This document shows positions 18,883 through 23,859 of a stretch of DNA of 64,000 bases, piece after piece. The DNA is taken from contig CAMYLJ010000005.1 in NCBI GenBank assembly GCA_947259215.1, positions 1 to 64,000 of the forward strand, read 5' to 3'. This DNA is from an uncultured delta proteobacterium. Lineage in GTDB: Bacteria; Myxococcota_A; UBA9160; JAFDET01. Position 1 is the stretch's first letter. Every line of letters starts with the position of its first letter. Below the pieces are notes generated by a model. The model ran no database searches. It saw nothing but the letters and a program-made list of their open reading frames with translations, and was not told where the DNA came from. The position numbers were made by a program, and so were the translations under genes.

Positions 18883-20022
18883 TTGGAAGCCAAGACCCTG
18901 ATCGAGCTCGCCCAGGACCGCGAGGTGCGCAAGGCCGCCGGATTCCGCGTCGTGGCCGAGCGCCTGGACGCCGCGGTGCTGGCGGGACTCTACGCCGGGC
19001 AGCGCGACACCGCGCCGCGCCGCGGCGACGCCGGCAAGAAGTACCTCGGCGGGCGCGACGGCACGCTGCCGAAGCGCGGCGCTCGCCGCGACGAAGACCA
19101 GCTCGCCATCGCGCTCGTGAACCACGCGCGCGAGAACTCGCAGACCCTGAAAATTCCGCCGCGCTTGCACGGCGAGGAGTGGGGTGAGCTGCTGCCGCTC
19201 GACTACCACGTGCCGCTCAAGCTGTCGGCGTCGGAGCCGGCGGGCGTGAACCGCGTCGACGTGCTCGGGATCGGGCCGGACGATCGCATGGCCGTGATCC
19301 TGCTGAAGTACGTGGCGCCTTCGGCCACCCGCGGCTCCACCGGCGACACTCCGCTGCGCGCACTGCTCGAGGCGCTGGCCTACGCGGCGATTCTCGACGC
19401 CAACGCGGAGACCCTGCGCGCGGAGGCGCAGGAGACCTTCGGACGCACCTTCGCGGAGGCGCCGCCCCTGGTCTACGTGATCGGAAGCCCGCGCTACTGG
19501 GAGCTCTGCCGGCGGCGCGAGGCGCAGAAGGGCGCGGCCTGGATCAACCAGCTCGAGCGCCTGGTCACGGTGCTGCACGAAGGCGACCCGCGCGTGATCG
19601 ACGAGGACGAGGAACCGGGACCGGCGCCGAACGCCCTCGGGCTCGGCGTGCGCTTCCTCGGGCTCCAGCTCGACGGCGACCCGCCCTGGGAGCTGCGGGA
19701 CGACAAGCCCACCTTCGAGGCGGCGCCTCGGCTGGTCCCGGCGTGGGAGTCCACGGCCGGGCGCATCAAGCCCAAGTCGAGGCCGCGCTCCAAGCCGAAG
19801 TCCGATGAGCCGGAGATCGTCGAGGCGGACCTCTCGCGCCCGATGCGCGGCTACGCCGTCACCGAGGCGTACACCGCGGGCGACCGCATCCAGCACCCCA
19901 CCCTGGGTGTCGGGGTCGTGCAGGGGGTGGCAGGGCCCACCAAGATCGAGGTGCTCTTCGATGGGGTGAAGCGGGTGCTGGTGCACGGCCGCGGTAGCCC
20001 CTCGTCACCCGCCGCCGTCTGA
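18883..20022 (+). CDS. Uncharacterised protein with C-terminal beta-barrel-like tail
   Basis: A 379-residue protein I do not recognise. The N-terminus (IELAQDREVRKAAGFRVVAERLD) is helical. A central alpha/beta region (about 95-240) includes PLDYHVPLKLSASEPAGVNRVDVLGIGPDDRMAVILLKYV and APPLVYVIGSPRYWELCRRREAQ, which has the feel of a restriction-endonuclease-like or PD-(D/E)xK fold, but no catalytic set can be named. A Lys/Arg/Pro linker precedes a terminal module, AGDRIQHPTLGVGVVQGVAGPTKIEVLFDGVKRVLVH, resembling CarD/Tudor-like barrels that end several myxobacterial proteins. TTG at 18883 is supported by GGAGGGTGCG; a longer frame upstream overlaps the previous gene. Confidence 0.6.
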   Translation: MEAKTLIELAQDREVRKAAGFRVVAERLDAAVLAGLYAGQRDTAPRRGDAGKKYLGGRDGTLPKRGARRDEDQLAIALVNHARENSQTLKIPPRLHGEEWGELLPLDYHVPLKLSASEPAGVNRVDVLGIGPDDRMAVILLKYVAPSATRGSTGDTPLRALLEALAYAAILDANAETLRAEAQETFGRTFAEAPPLVYVIGSPRYWELCRRREAQKGAAWINQLERLVTVLHEGDPRVIDEDEEPGPAPNALGLGVRFLGLQLDGDPPWELRDDKPTFEAAPRLVPAWESTAGRIKPKSRPRSKPKSDEPEIVEADLSRPMRGYAVTEAYTAGDRIQHPTLGVGVVQGVAGPTKIEVLFDGVKRVLVHGRGSPSSPAAV

Positions 20023-20036
20023 GTCATCCCAGCCGC

Positions 20037-21278
20037 GTGGGACGGATCTCGCGTTGGTGCGCCGCGGGAGCGGTGGCGCTGGTCGCCGGCTGCGGGGCGG
20101 GCGAGGGCGAGGAGCCGCCTGCGGACTCGCCCATGGCAGCGCGCGCGCCGGACGCCGCCGCCGAAGGCCTCGACCGCGCGGCGGTGCTGGGTTCCTTCCT
20201 CGACGCCCACTGGCAGCTCCCGGTTCCGGCTCAGGGCCCGCCGCCCGAGGGTTGGAGCGAGGCCGAGGCGTCGCTCGATCCCCAGGTCTGCGGCGCCTGT
20301 CACCCGAAGCAGCACGCCGAGTGGGAGACGAGCCTGCATGCCGGGGCCTGGTCCCCGGGCTTCGCGGGCCAGCTGGTGGAGGGGGGCCTCGCCGACCCGG
20401 ACGCGCGCGCCAGCTGCATGACCTGCCATGCGCCGTTGACGGAGCAGCTCGCGGACGCGGAGCTGCGGGCCCAGGGCATCGTGTGCGCCGGCTGCCACGT
20501 GCGCACCCACGAGCACCGGGGACCGCCTCGGCGCTCCGAGCTTCCCCCCGCCGCGGACCCGCTGCCTCACGGCGGCTTCACGCCGCGCGAGGAGTTCCAG
20601 CAGGCCCGCTTCTGCGCGACCTGCCACCAGTTCTTCCACGACGCGGGCGTGAACGGGAAGGCCGTCGAGAATACCTTCGCCGAGTGGCAGGCGAGTCCGT
20701 TCGCCGAGCCGGGGCCGGACCAGCGCGACTGCCAGGACTGCCACATGCCGGACCGCGCCCACCTGTGGCGCGGCATCCACGACCCGGAGATGGTGCGCTC
20801 GGGCGTCGAGGCATCCCTCGAGCCGGCCGGCGCGGGCCTCTCGGGCGAGCGGCTCGAGGCCAGGCTCGTGCTGCGCAGCACGGCCGTCGGCCACGCCTTC
20901 CCCAGCTACGTGACACCCCGCGTCTTCCTCGAGCTGTGGCAGGCGGACGCCGCCGGTGCCGAGATCGCGGAGACCCGCGAGGCCTTCACGGTGGCCCGCA
21001 TCCTCGACTTCGGCAGCCACCCCTGGGAAGAGATCCAGGACACGCGCATTCTCCCGGGCGGCGCCGCGACTCTCGACTACGCCCGTCCGCGCGCGCCGGG
21101 CGCCGCCGCCCTGAAGGGCCGCGTGCGCGTCGACCCCGACTTCCACTACCGCAGCGTGTTCGCCGCGCTGAAGGACTCCTACACCACCGAAGAAGCCCGA
21201 GGCCTGATGCGCGACGCCCACCGCCGCACCCTCCAGTCCCCCTACGCCCTCTACGAACTGAACCTCCCCCTGCAATAG
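20037..21278 (+). CDS. Pentaheme c-type cytochrome lipoprotein
   Basis: A 413-residue exported electron-transfer protein. Lipobox VAGC is near residue 19. Five CXXCH heme sites occur: CGACH, CMTCH, CAGCH, CATCH and CQDCH, all between about residues 85 and 240. The remaining C-terminal half (VEASLEPAGAGLSGERLEARLVLRSTAVGHAFPSY...) is a beta-rich domain without hemes, like those of cytochrome c-554-type family proteins. The redox partner is unknown. GTG at 20037, 14 nt after the previous stop, has no clear ribosome site. Converges on the NPC-repeat cytochrome across a GGGGACG-type hairpin. Confidence 0.82.
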   Translation: MGRISRWCAAGAVALVAGCGAGEGEEPPADSPMAARAPDAAAEGLDRAAVLGSFLDAHWQLPVPAQGPPPEGWSEAEASLDPQVCGACHPKQHAEWETSLHAGAWSPGFAGQLVEGGLADPDARASCMTCHAPLTEQLADAELRAQGIVCAGCHVRTHEHRGPPRRSELPPAADPLPHGGFTPREEFQQARFCATCHQFFHDAGVNGKAVENTFAEWQASPFAEPGPDQRDCQDCHMPDRAHLWRGIHDPEMVRSGVEASLEPAGAGLSGERLEARLVLRSTAVGHAFPSYVTPRVFLELWQADAAGAEIAETREAFTVARILDFGSHPWEEIQDTRILPGGAATLDYARPRAPGAAALKGRVRVDPDFHYRSVFAALKDSYTTEEARGLMRDAHRRTLQSPYALYELNLPLQ

Positions 21279-21292
21279 AGGGGACGAATGGA

Positions 21293-21375
21293 GGGGACGT
21301 TCCTCAGCTCTTGCGCCAGGTGCCACTCCTCGACTCGAGGAGTGGCACCTGGCGCAAATCTCGAGGAACGTCCCC
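21293..21375. repeat. GGGGACG-family hairpin (copy B)
   Basis: Inverted repeat with arms of 38 nt: 13 matching outer bases (GGGGACGTTCCTC), a 5-nt internal mismatch, then 20 matching bases, closed by CGACTCG. A fragment GGGGACGAATG directly precedes it (21281). It lies between two convergent cytochrome genes. Confidence 0.82.
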
Positions 21376-21393
21376 GTTCTTGCGCTGCTGGGC

Positions 21394-22077
21394 CTACCTG
21401 CGCGGCTTGCAGGGGTTGCACGGGTTGGCCGCGCAGGGATTCGCCCCGCACGGATTCGGCTTCCAGCTCTTCTGGACCTGCTCCACGTACGCGGCCAGGG
21501 CGGCCAGCTTGCGGGCGTCCTGCTTGTCGTTCCAGTCGAAGGCCTCGGCCTGCATGGGCTGGAGCATGCAGAACTGCACCATCTCGGCCGCGCTCACCTC
21601 GCTGGCGCCCGACTGCTGCTTCACCATGGCGACCGGGTGCGGGTAGGCCTTGGCGAAGGTCGGCTGGAACTGGGCGCCGCCGGTGTGGCAGGTGGCGCAG
21701 GCGGCGCCGTTCGTGCTGAGCGACGTGTCGTTCCAGAGCTGCCTGCCGAGCGCCACGTCGCCGCCGCCGAGGGTGTAGCCGGCGGGCTGCTTGAACTTCT
21801 TCGGGTCCACGGAGGCGCTGCCGCCGCACGGGTTCGCGCCTGCACAGGGATTCTTGCCCGCACACGGGTTCTTGCCGGCGCAGGGATTCTTTGGGGCGCA
21901 GGGGTTCTTCTTGGCGCACGGATTGGCGCAGGGGTTCGCGCACGGGTTCTCGTGGTGGTCCGCCTGGGCGGCCGGCGGCGCCACGCCCGCCAGCGAGAGG
22001 GCGAAGGCGAGGCCGAGCAGGCCGCGCGCGAGCGCCAGCCCGACCCGGGGTGCACGCGTCTGAAATACCGAGATCAT
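21394..22077 (-). CDS. Monoheme cytochrome c with NPC cysteine repeats
   Basis: A 227-residue exported protein. The signal peptide ends near residue 39 (PPAAQA|D). Residues about 44-84 contain eight Asn-Pro-Cys tripeptides spaced by 1-3 residues, and the last 20 residues contain four more. Between them is a class-I cytochrome c core with CATCH at 127-131, FVGG-like GGGDVALGRQLWND, and a Met-rich segment FCMLQPM that could supply the axial methionine. The twelve extra cysteines could bind metal or form a disulfide/thioether network. AGGAGGACCC precedes the ATG. Regulation and partner are unknown; another cytochrome gene is convergent. Confidence 0.8.
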   Translation of the reverse strand: MISVFQTRAPRVGLALARGLLGLAFALSLAGVAPPAAQADHHENPCANPCANPCAKKNPCAPKNPCAGKNPCAGKNPCAGANPCGGSASVDPKKFKQPAGYTLGGGDVALGRQLWNDTSLSTNGAACATCHTGGAQFQPTFAKAYPHPVAMVKQQSGASEVSAAEMVQFCMLQPMQAEAFDWNDKQDARKLAALAAYVEQVQKSWKPNPCGANPCAANPCNPCKPRR

Positions 22078-22198
22078 CGATTGGGTCCTCCTTCGGATCC
22101 TGGGTCCACTACGTCGCTCCGGTCTGGAGAGTTACGGGGGCCGGTGGGTCCGGAGCTCCTCACCGATCCCTTCCCTTGGGGGGGCTCTCCCCCGCCGG

Positions 22199-22204
22199 TA
22201 TGCT
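22199..22204 (+). promoter_or_regulatory. -10 element, possible leaderless transcript
   Basis: TATGCT ends 9 nt before the ATG at 22214; the intervening CGGCCGCC region has no Shine-Dalgarno sequence. Confidence 0.35.
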
Positions 22205-22213
22205 TCGGCCGCC

Positions 22214-23128
22214 ATGTCCGCCGAATCGCTGCAGCCGACGAGCGTCCGCATCCACGCTCGCGCCGGGCTGCTCGGCAACCCGTCGGATGTCTACGGCGGC
22301 AAGGCGCTTGCCGTCTCCCTGGCCGACTGGTCGGCCGTGGTGCGCCTCGAGCCCTCGGACGAACTGCGCTTCGATGCGGCACCCGACGGTCGGAAACTGC
22401 TGGAGGCCGCCCTGGGCCGCCTGCCCGAGCTGCCCCACCGCCGCCTCGCCCTCTCGTTCGAGAGCGACATCCCCCGCCAGGTCGGACTGGCGGGCTCGAG
22501 CGCCATCGTGGTGGGGGCGCTGCGCGCGCTGTGCCGGGGCTTCGGGCTCGAGCTCCACCCGGCGGAGCTGGCCGAGCGCGCGCTGGCCGCCGAGGCCGAG
22601 GACCTGGGGATCGTCGCGGGGCCGATGGACCGGGTGATCCAGGCCTACGGGGGTCTGGTGGCGATGGACTTTCGCGGGCCGCGCGGTCCCGACGCGTATC
22701 GGCGTCTCGACCCGCAGCTCCTGCCCCCCCTCTTCGTGGCCTGGGATCCCGAGCCTGGCGAGGTCTCCGGGGTGCCCCACGCGGCCGTGCGCGAGCGCTG
22801 GCGGCGCGGCGACCCGGCGGTGCGCGAGGCCATGGCGATCTTCCCGAAGCTCGTGGACGAGGGTGTGACCTGTCTCGAACGGGGCGACCTCGACGGTTTC
22901 CGCCACTGCGTCGACCGCAGCTTCGACACCCGCGCCGCCATCTGGCCCCTGCGAGAGCGCGACGTCGAGTTGGTGCGAATCGGCCGCGCGCAGGGCGCGG
23001 CGGTGAAGTTCTGCGGCTCCGGCGGCGCCGTGGTCGGCGTGTTGCGCAGCCCGGACGCCTACCCGCCCCTGGCGCGCGCCTACGCCGACGCTGGCTTCCG
23101 CAGCCTCGTCCCGACGGTGGCTCCGTGA
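22214..23128 (+). CDS. GHMP kinase (sugar-1-kinase / glucuronokinase-like)
   Basis: A 304-residue small-molecule kinase. GHMP motif 1 is RAGLLGNPSDVYGGKAL, motif 2 (ATP loop) QVGLAGSSAIVVGAL, motif 3 KFCGSGGAVVGVL. The LLGNPSD N-terminus and EDLGIVAGPMDRVIQAYGG resemble glucuronokinase and related sugar-1-kinases. It would phosphorylate a sugar at C1. The next gene, a nucleotidyltransferase, overlaps it by 4 nt, so together they could salvage a free sugar to an NDP-sugar. The sugar cannot be told from sequence; mevalonate-type substrates are less likely given the partner. Confidence 0.82.
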   Translation: MSAESLQPTSVRIHARAGLLGNPSDVYGGKALAVSLADWSAVVRLEPSDELRFDAAPDGRKLLEAALGRLPELPHRRLALSFESDIPRQVGLAGSSAIVVGALRALCRGFGLELHPAELAERALAAEAEDLGIVAGPMDRVIQAYGGLVAMDFRGPRGPDAYRRLDPQLLPPLFVAWDPEPGEVSGVPHAAVRERWRRGDPAVREAMAIFPKLVDEGVTCLERGDLDGFRHCVDRSFDTRAAIWPLRERDVELVRIGRAQGAAVKFCGSGGAVVGVLRSPDAYPPLARAYADAGFRSLVPTVAP

Positions 23129-23859
23129 AGGCCTACCTGCTGGCCGCCGGCTACGCGACCCGTCTCTACCCGCTCACGAAGGACCGGGCCAAGCCGCTGC
23201 TCGAGGTGGGAGGAAAGGCGCTTCTCACGCACATCCTGGAGCGCATCACGCCCTTGGCGGGGCTCTCCGAGGTGGCGGTGGTCGGCAACACGAAGTTCGC
23301 CGGCCAGCTCGAGGCCTGGGCCGCGAACGTCGACTGCCCGGTCCCGGTGCGCGTCCTCGACGACGGCTCGACGCAGGAGGGCGATCGGCTCGGCGCGGTC
23401 GGCGACATCGCCTTCGCGCTGGAGCACGTCCCGCCGGCGGGGGAGGACATCGTCGTCGTGGCCGGCGACAACCTGCTCGGCTTCGACCTGGCGCCGGCGC
23501 AGGCCGCGTTTCTGGCGGCGCGCCGGCCCACGATCCTGGTGCGCCGGCTGGAGCGCGACGGCCCGTCCGCGTACAACGAGGTGACGCTCGGCGAGAACGA
23601 CGGGGTCACGGGCTTCCGCGAGAAGCCGCCGGACCCGGGCACGCCCTGGGCCGCCATCTGCCTCTACTTCTGGCCGCCGGAAGTGGAGGCGCTGCTGCGC
23701 GAGTACCTGGCCGGCGGCGGAAATCCGGACGCGCCGGGCCACTTCATCGAGTGGCTCGTCCGCCGCACCGAGGTCGTCGCCCAACGCACCGACGGCGCCT
23801 GGTTCGACATCGGCAGCCACGAGGCCCTGGTGGAAGCTCGCGCGCGCTTCGGCGGCTAG
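23125..23859 (+). CDS. Sugar-1-phosphate nucleotidyltransferase
   Basis: A 244-residue NTP transferase. The nucleotide-binding motif is LLAAGYATRLYPLTKDRAKPLLEVGGK at the N-terminus, VVAGDNLLGFDL carries the metal Asp, and TGFREKPPDPGTP the sugar-phosphate loop. It makes an NDP-sugar from the product of the upstream kinase. GTG at 23125 sits in GTGA, overlapping the kinase stop. Short for the family: no C-terminal left-handed helix, so no acetyltransferase activity is fused. Confidence 0.9.
   Translation: MKAYLLAAGYATRLYPLTKDRAKPLLEVGGKALLTHILERITPLAGLSEVAVVGNTKFAGQLEAWAANVDCPVPVRVLDDGSTQEGDRLGAVGDIAFALEHVPPAGEDIVVVAGDNLLGFDLAPAQAAFLAARRPTILVRRLERDGPSAYNEVTLGENDGVTGFREKPPDPGTPWAAICLYFWPPEVEALLREYLAGGGNPDAPGHFIEWLVRRTEVVAQRTDGAWFDIGSHEALVEARARFGG

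Follow-up and report, generated by a model that had tools for sequence, protein, structure and literature searches.

What is a cytochrome c doing with twelve Asn-Pro-Cys (NPC) tripeptides around its heme domain? The question is raised by a gene in a 64-kb stretch of DNA (64,000 nucleotides, hereafter the window) from an uncultured delta proteobacterium. The initial annotation described eight NPC units on the N-terminal side and four on the C-terminal side of one CATCH motif, and this was borne out on the minus strand (Table 1). The units start at residues 44, 48, 52, 58, 64, 70, 76, 82, 208, 213, 218, and 221, and the protein has a single CATCH and 15 cysteines overall. Across the six frames of the window, 21394-22077 is the only open frame of at least 40 aa with at least two NPC. 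The 12 units are written in six codon spellings and are therefore not the result of a fresh DNA duplication. By eye, an AAGGAGG sequence was found at 22087-22093, 9 nt 5' of the ATG. The cytochrome is probably exported, as predicted from a hydrophobic N-terminus followed by the candidate cleavage site AQA/DHHENPC in a crude scan that also listed earlier sites. The mature protein would then start with Asp-His-His, which we take to be an ATCUN-like site.

Table 1. Features of the cytochrome locus, in positions of the window.
Feature	Position	Strand	Basis
NPC-arm monoheme cytochrome c, 227 aa	21394..22077	-	Open reading frame, relatives and Pfam
Predicted Sec signal peptide, residues 1-39, cut AQA/DHHE	21961..22077	-	Crude hydrophobicity and A-X-A scan
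N-terminal arm, residues 40-86, eight NPC	21820..21960	-	Block mean pLDDT 43-58
SoxA/TsdA-type cytochrome core, residues 87-206	21460..21819	-	Block mean pLDDT 83-98, alignments, fold matches
CATCH heme attachment motif, residues 127-131	21685..21699	-	Sequence
Cys170, invariant, probable axial heme ligand	21568..21570	-	Alignment of 67 rows and SoxA alignment
C-terminal arm, residues 207-227, four NPC	21397..21459	-	Mean pLDDT about 50
Convergent pentaheme c-type lipoprotein, MccSep/ExtKL- and cytochrome-c552-like	20037..21278	+	Five CXXCH
Near-perfect palindrome between the convergent genes	21293..21375		Arms 92% alike

One scan of genome contigs with the core found 147 relatives, of which the best 80 were kept; these 80 are thus not a random sample, and they come mostly from Beta- and Gammaproteobacteria. 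The search for NPC-repeat cytochromes in other genomes, which the initial annotation had proposed together with a survey of their neighbours, was productive: the core and at least four NPC share one open frame in 70 of 81 sequences (the window and the best 80 of 147). NPC units lie on both sides of the core in 65 of these 70, with a median of 12 units, and the cytochrome with arms on both sides is a widespread family found across phyla. In the core tree, the rows closest to the window are Myxococcota MAGs, and 7 of 97 related genomes, the window's own included, have the cytochrome form. Culturable carriers include Pseudomonas (P. alcaligenes) and Marinobacter, and a plasmid search gave one match, an unannotated Cupriavidus record. 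Two gammaproteobacterial members (L116 and L118) have mostly GPC in place of NPC. Seven members (L068, L076, L083, L085, L090, L095, and L099) are armless and form a single clade (support 100/99), Comamonadaceae where named, nested among armed ones. Near this clade are two rows, L082 and L069, with 1 and 4 NPC, as if arms had been lost stepwise. No description of NPC-repeat cytochromes was found in the PMC literature searched, among the matches listed. The architecture is real and conserved, and its component parts are of known kinds.

Arms of this sort could be neutral tails, made by slippage and without a role of their own, and the initial annotation had named frameshifts or wildly varying copy number among strains as a sign of this. 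Copy number is labile between species (0-43), near relatives also differ, and one clade is armless. However, within the 25 most similar core pairs, the difference between armed near relatives is 0-3 units in each arm (truncated or masked members set aside). NPC codon changes were 162 silent versus 18 replacing over 14 armed pairs among these 25, and 153 versus 6 in 12 armed pairs without the masked L113. The pairs overlap, and the counts are biased toward silent changes by repeat units that can be aligned to one another. The small unit differences between near relatives and the almost exclusively silent changes of NPC codons make a neutral tail unlikely; arms at both ends across phyla and a correlation between N- and C-arm sizes (rho 0.48, kinship ignored) also argue against it, and we consider this explanation very improbable. 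Among 1151 arm cysteines, taken from 80 of 82 sequences as the pattern missed the other two, 922 follow Asn-Pro and just 2 precede His, and the arms thus do not make heme sites. They are low in His (0.4%), Asp (1.2%), and Glu (0.7%). In the AlphaFold2 model, 102 core residues have a pLDDT of at least 90 and the arms are near or below 50, giving a well-modelled core with arms predicted to be disordered.

The core had been called a normal heme core. A more accurate description is a SoxA/TsdA-like domain whose heme probably has His/Cys ligation. Pfam searches of the window protein gave CCP_MauG at 30.1 bits (cut-off 25.6), with only profile positions 4-41 of 149 aligned, and the two heme c motifs of di-heme CCP/MauG (PF03150) are absent from a protein with one CXXCH. 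SoxA-TsdA_cyt-c (PF21342) scored 26.4 bits, just below the cut-off of 27, which was passed by all seven relatives scanned (L058, L085, L103, L120, L004, L034, and L068). VIA-align gave as its best matches TsdA (Z 6.5) and, over 84 residues at 2.8 A, the N-terminal domain of SoxA (Z 7.9), and Foldseek returned weak E-values of 0.014 and above. All fold matches have Z below 8 and are alone no proof of kinship; the claim of SoxA/TsdA kinship is carried by the Pfam hits. In the alignment of 67 rows, invariant positions include C127, C130, H131, H147, M151, C170, and M175. Cys170, 39 residues past the heme His, pairs in a profile alignment with the Cys of QMINACRTSRM in Rhodovulum sulfidophilum SoxA, presumably a heme ligand there. 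From these alignments, Cys170 is probably an axial ligand of a His/Cys heme. According to sections of PMC4423706, the heme ligands of TsdA are His80 and Cys123, and by the same numbering the active-site Arg119 is four residues ahead of Cys123. At this Cys-4 position the window protein has Met166, which is nearly invariant in the 67 rows and invariant in 33. Thus, the fold and the probable His/Cys heme are SoxA-like, while the catalytic signature is not. The protein shares with the SoxA/TsdA domain one CXXCH and an invariant Cys some 40 residues C-terminal to the heme His, and differs from these enzymes by its Cys-rich arms and by its single heme; a second heme domain, such as the C-terminal domain of TsdA, is absent from the window protein with its one CXXCH.

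A possible, though rather unlikely, function follows the SoxA likeness: the His/Cys heme would oxidatively link thiosulfate, sulfide or sulfane sulfur to the NPC-arm thiols, which would serve as does the carrier cysteine of SoxY. The PF21342 scores of the seven relatives, the SoxA and TsdA fold matches and the pairing of Cys170 with the SoxA Cys are consistent with such sulfur carriage, as is the joining of thiosulfate to thiolates by the SoxA family, described in the same sections of PMC4423706. The replacement of the TsdA Arg by Met argues against it, and so does the best SoxA match, which is to the N-terminal and not to the catalytic domain. When the neighbourhood ORFs were scanned for a GGCG tail like that of SoxY, the single match, an ORF of 75 aa, was unconvincing, which likewise weakens the case.

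The neighbourhoods bear on both sulfur and metals. Neighbour gene calls were rough and served only to collect candidates, and as many loci end near the gene, the counts are lower bounds. Within 3 kb of the cytochrome, at the 80 loci where a cytochrome cluster was recognised, we found DUF6969 (48 loci), ECF sigma factors (24), zf-HC2 (11), Sulf_transp/YedE (16), DUF302 (15), and DUF3179 (13), together with a merged cluster of pentaheme or FGE-like genes (36 of 80), which were told apart by heme count. The fetched flanks of 82 loci contained DUF6969 at 50, a pentaheme gene at 28, and an FGE-sulfatase-like gene at 10. DUF6969 was considered as an obligatory partner and rejected: it is in the flanks of 50 of the 82 loci, but in 0 of 97 of the window's relatives, in a search that had no match in any control genome either and is alone no proof of absence. 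No mention of DUF6969 was found in the PMC literature searched. A DUF3179-cluster gene lies directly upstream of the cytochrome in G006 (Pfam-checked), G008, G042, and G083, and not in the window. The FGE-sulfatase-like genes are at L057, L070, L087, L103, L104, L106, L112, L117, L119, and L129, two called by Pfam and the other eight by similarity. GCGVC is kept in eight of the ten, and NPC units tend to be more numerous at loci with such a gene (P 1.4e-4, without correction for kinship). As for an FGE-like neighbour acting as oxidase of the arm cysteines, the copper-site spacing that we assume for FGE was unmatched by eye.

The YedE and DUF302 genes are the kind of neighbour that sulfur carriage would lead one to expect, and these sulfur-type neighbours are commoner than mer genes. 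A CcdA-type gene is found close downstream of all seven armless members and in the flanks of 2 of the 75 other members, and a thioredoxin gene adjoins four of the seven, which again favours sulfur carriage; DUF6969 is on the opposite strand in all seven. Mercury genes point to the other function. The merA test covered the first 50 of 75 carrier genome handles, seven of the 50 being armless, and found 23 copies over the curated cut-off in 19 of these 50 carrier genomes other than the window's own. In four of the 50 (L054, L059, L101, and L102; places matched by hand), merA is at most 8 kb from the cytochrome where 0.098 was expected (P 3.5e-6, related genomes counted as independent), and three further mer neighbours lie beyond the test (L111, L113, and L120). 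The P values for mer and CcdA are optimistic, since both are clustered on the tree. Searching by the motif DKTGT gave two P-type ATPases in the flanks.

The NPC cytochrome keeps the same company as the bufferins, for which sections of PMC12452194 describe Buf1/cytochrome c/FGE-sulfatase fusions and MerC fusions as well as sigma/anti-sigma genes. Bufferins (Buf1/Buf2, Buf_EGKCG/oxazolin) are exported and Cys-rich; the window protein is Cys-rich and has a signal peptide by the crude scan. It differs in its NPC rather than EGKCG repeats, in having arms, predicted to be disordered, at both ends, and in coming from a genome without an MNIO gene. That the arms are MNIO-modified peptides, making the protein a bufferin-type RiPP with heme, is suggested by the likeness of the Cys-repeat arms to Buf_EGKCG repeats and by the bufferin/cytochrome fusions. 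However, PF05114 (MNIO) was found neither in the window's genome (95.7% complete), for which an MNIO-RiPP is thereby largely ruled out, nor in any of the 13 further genomes that make up the 14 with the NPC pattern among the 97, and it is absent from 37 of 50 other cytochrome-carrying genomes, seven of the 50 armless. We regard this as the least probable of the explanations. Among the 97 relatives, PF05114 is in 0 of 14 NPC-pattern genomes versus 49 of 83 others (P 1.7e-5). This exclusion probably reflects kinship and is not a rule, because 13 of 50 cytochrome carriers elsewhere have PF05114 (11 of 43 armed and 2 of 7 armless).

The NPC repeat is not confined to cytochromes. A pattern of three repeats matched in 14 of the 97 related genomes, the window's own included, and the reversed control pattern in none; the pattern misses wider spacings, at least in G048, an NPC genome that also is without PF05114. 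In the window's lineage the repeat is found on at least three scaffolds, namely small stand-alone proteins, OmpA-domain proteins and the SoxA/TsdA-type cytochrome, and the non-cytochrome forms comprise small exported-looking proteins, a lipoprotein-like protein, and the OmpA-domain proteins of G000 and G032. At least three NPC proteins are encoded by the window's own genome (G000). The second (G000:C12:62972-63241; L002 718-1791) has ten NPC units followed by an OmpA domain, and its gene begins just before a TlpA/ResA-like thioredoxin gene has ended, so that the two overlap. The third (L171 7458-7790) is small and exported-looking, without a Pfam match, has three C-terminal NPC, and reads LAAAEHHE, with EHHE after the signal by eye. 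In genus g5, small NPC proteins (L045, L046, L047, L048, and L049) are encoded downstream of a DUF2330-like gene, called by Pfam for L049 and by eye at the other loci, and a WCDPC motif is present in each of the three that are full-length. A His at mature position 3 (xHH or DSH; DHH in the window), presumably an ATCUN-like copper/nickel site, is possible in 10 of 20 lineage NPC proteins scanned (the window, L010, L011, L012, L022, L025, L027, L029, L032, and L173), where other cuts are often possible as well. Such an N-terminus is missing from the other five lineage NPC cytochromes scanned, and none was noticed by eye in the 80 named loci.

These proteins also bear on the wall-linking arm of the initial annotation, for which the case is weaker than for its metal-binding arm. 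The arms would cross-link to each other, or to the small and OmpA-domain NPC proteins, by disulfides into a matrix or anchor that fixes the cytochrome beside the pentaheme lipoprotein. The OmpA-domain NPC proteins of G000, beside its TlpA/ResA-like gene, and of G032 are what such an anchor could use. Cornifin, a family that we take to belong to the cornified envelope, is matched by the arms of L034, probably by composition. In sections of PMC7677010, CdeC of the Clostridioides difficile exosporium is described as a Cys-rich spore protein with a repeat of six NPC and redox-sensitive multimers. The part of CdeC that drives multimerisation is not evident in these sections and heme is unmentioned; CdeC is likened to the NPC cytochrome by its repeat and its many cysteines. 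Cross-linking fits poorly with arms carried on a redox domain and with an armless clade, and it leaves the mer linkage unexplained; we therefore consider it improbable.

The pentaheme gene was described as facing the cytochrome gene across a hairpin repeat. The convergent pentaheme gene and the hairpin are both real, but the hairpin is not locus-specific. The palindrome has an MFE of -83.7 kcal/mol (z -10.6) and belongs to a dispersed repeat that gave 26 hits spread over 16 genomic places, which rules out a feature particular to this locus and a special link between the two genes; possibly, it works as a two-way terminator. One copy touches the third NPC gene (C40:49409-49460). Rfam searches of 19500-23500 at gathering thresholds gave nothing. 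The pentaheme gene is convergent to the NPC cytochrome in all five lineage members with enough contig (the window, G006, G008, G028, and G083); the contigs of G042 and G045 end too early to be counted. By eye, its product has the lipobox VAGC. PDB profile searches matched 5ze8 (4.3e-13) and 9wt8 (1.4e-12), Foldseek matched 5ze8 (2.1e-10, TM 0.55), and NCBIfam ExtKL (NF040886) scored 44.4 bits, far below its cut-off of 250. Five hemes are also found in MccSep/ExtKL (9wt8) and Thermochromatium tepidum cytochrome c552 (5ze8), and the window gene is readable without an in-frame TGA, unlike the selenoprotein MccSep. Sections of PMC13188914 list ExtKL, DUF3179, and YeeE/YedE among families with selenocysteine members (DUF3179 also in PMC9312934), and according to sections of PMC5877670, extKL of Geobacter sulfurreducens belongs to the ext cluster, which also holds a rhodanese-like gene, and selenite and tellurite are reduced more slowly in that species when extI is lost. 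By analogy, these family members and the ext cluster suggest redox-active thiol or chalcogen chemistry.

Soft-metal buffering and sulfur carriage would both need reactive thiols, and we rank buffering first and sulfur carriage second. A metal-binding arm, as the initial annotation suggested, fits the evidence and is the likeliest reading, drawn from context. We propose tentatively, at rather less than even confidence, that the NPC arms are a thiol sponge for mercury and copper tied to a heme, similar to a bufferin without the MNIO enzyme. This is favoured by arms on both sides of the core across phyla, arm cysteines that mostly follow Asn-Pro and hardly ever precede His, NPC codons that change almost only silently, the predicted disorder of the arms, nearby merA, the His-3 N-termini, the ECF sigma, zf-HC2 and FGE-like neighbours, the bufferin fusions, and CcdA beside the armless members. 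The more numerous sulfur-type neighbours, the patchy His-3, the scarcity of His and acidic residues in the arms and the armless clade count against it. Because Dsb systems oxidise them, free thiols are considered scarce outside the cytoplasm. In a thiol buffer for soft metals, the arms would stay free thiols there and capture Hg(II) and Cu(I), with plain cysteines in place of the heterocycles made by MNIO. Electrons would pass between the arm thiols, or the bound metal, and both the probably His/Cys-ligated heme and the pentaheme lipoprotein, and arms that had become oxidised would thereby be recharged. For the armless clade, an alternative source of thiols may be the CcdA-type thiol reductase, often accompanied by thioredoxin, that is encoded beside the cytochrome.

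On a wider and more doubtful reading, NPC-arm proteins would form a so far undescribed class of exported thiol buffers that does without MNIO, and the cytochrome form would wire soft metal or sulfane sulfur via a His/Cys heme to the pentaheme cytochrome for redox-driven detoxification. A family with Cys-rich disordered arms and a probably Cys-ligated heme would join thiosulfate-type cytochromes with metal-buffering peptides, and would give a role to the recurrent neighbourhood of DUF6969, DUF3179, DUF302, YedE and the pentaheme cytochrome.
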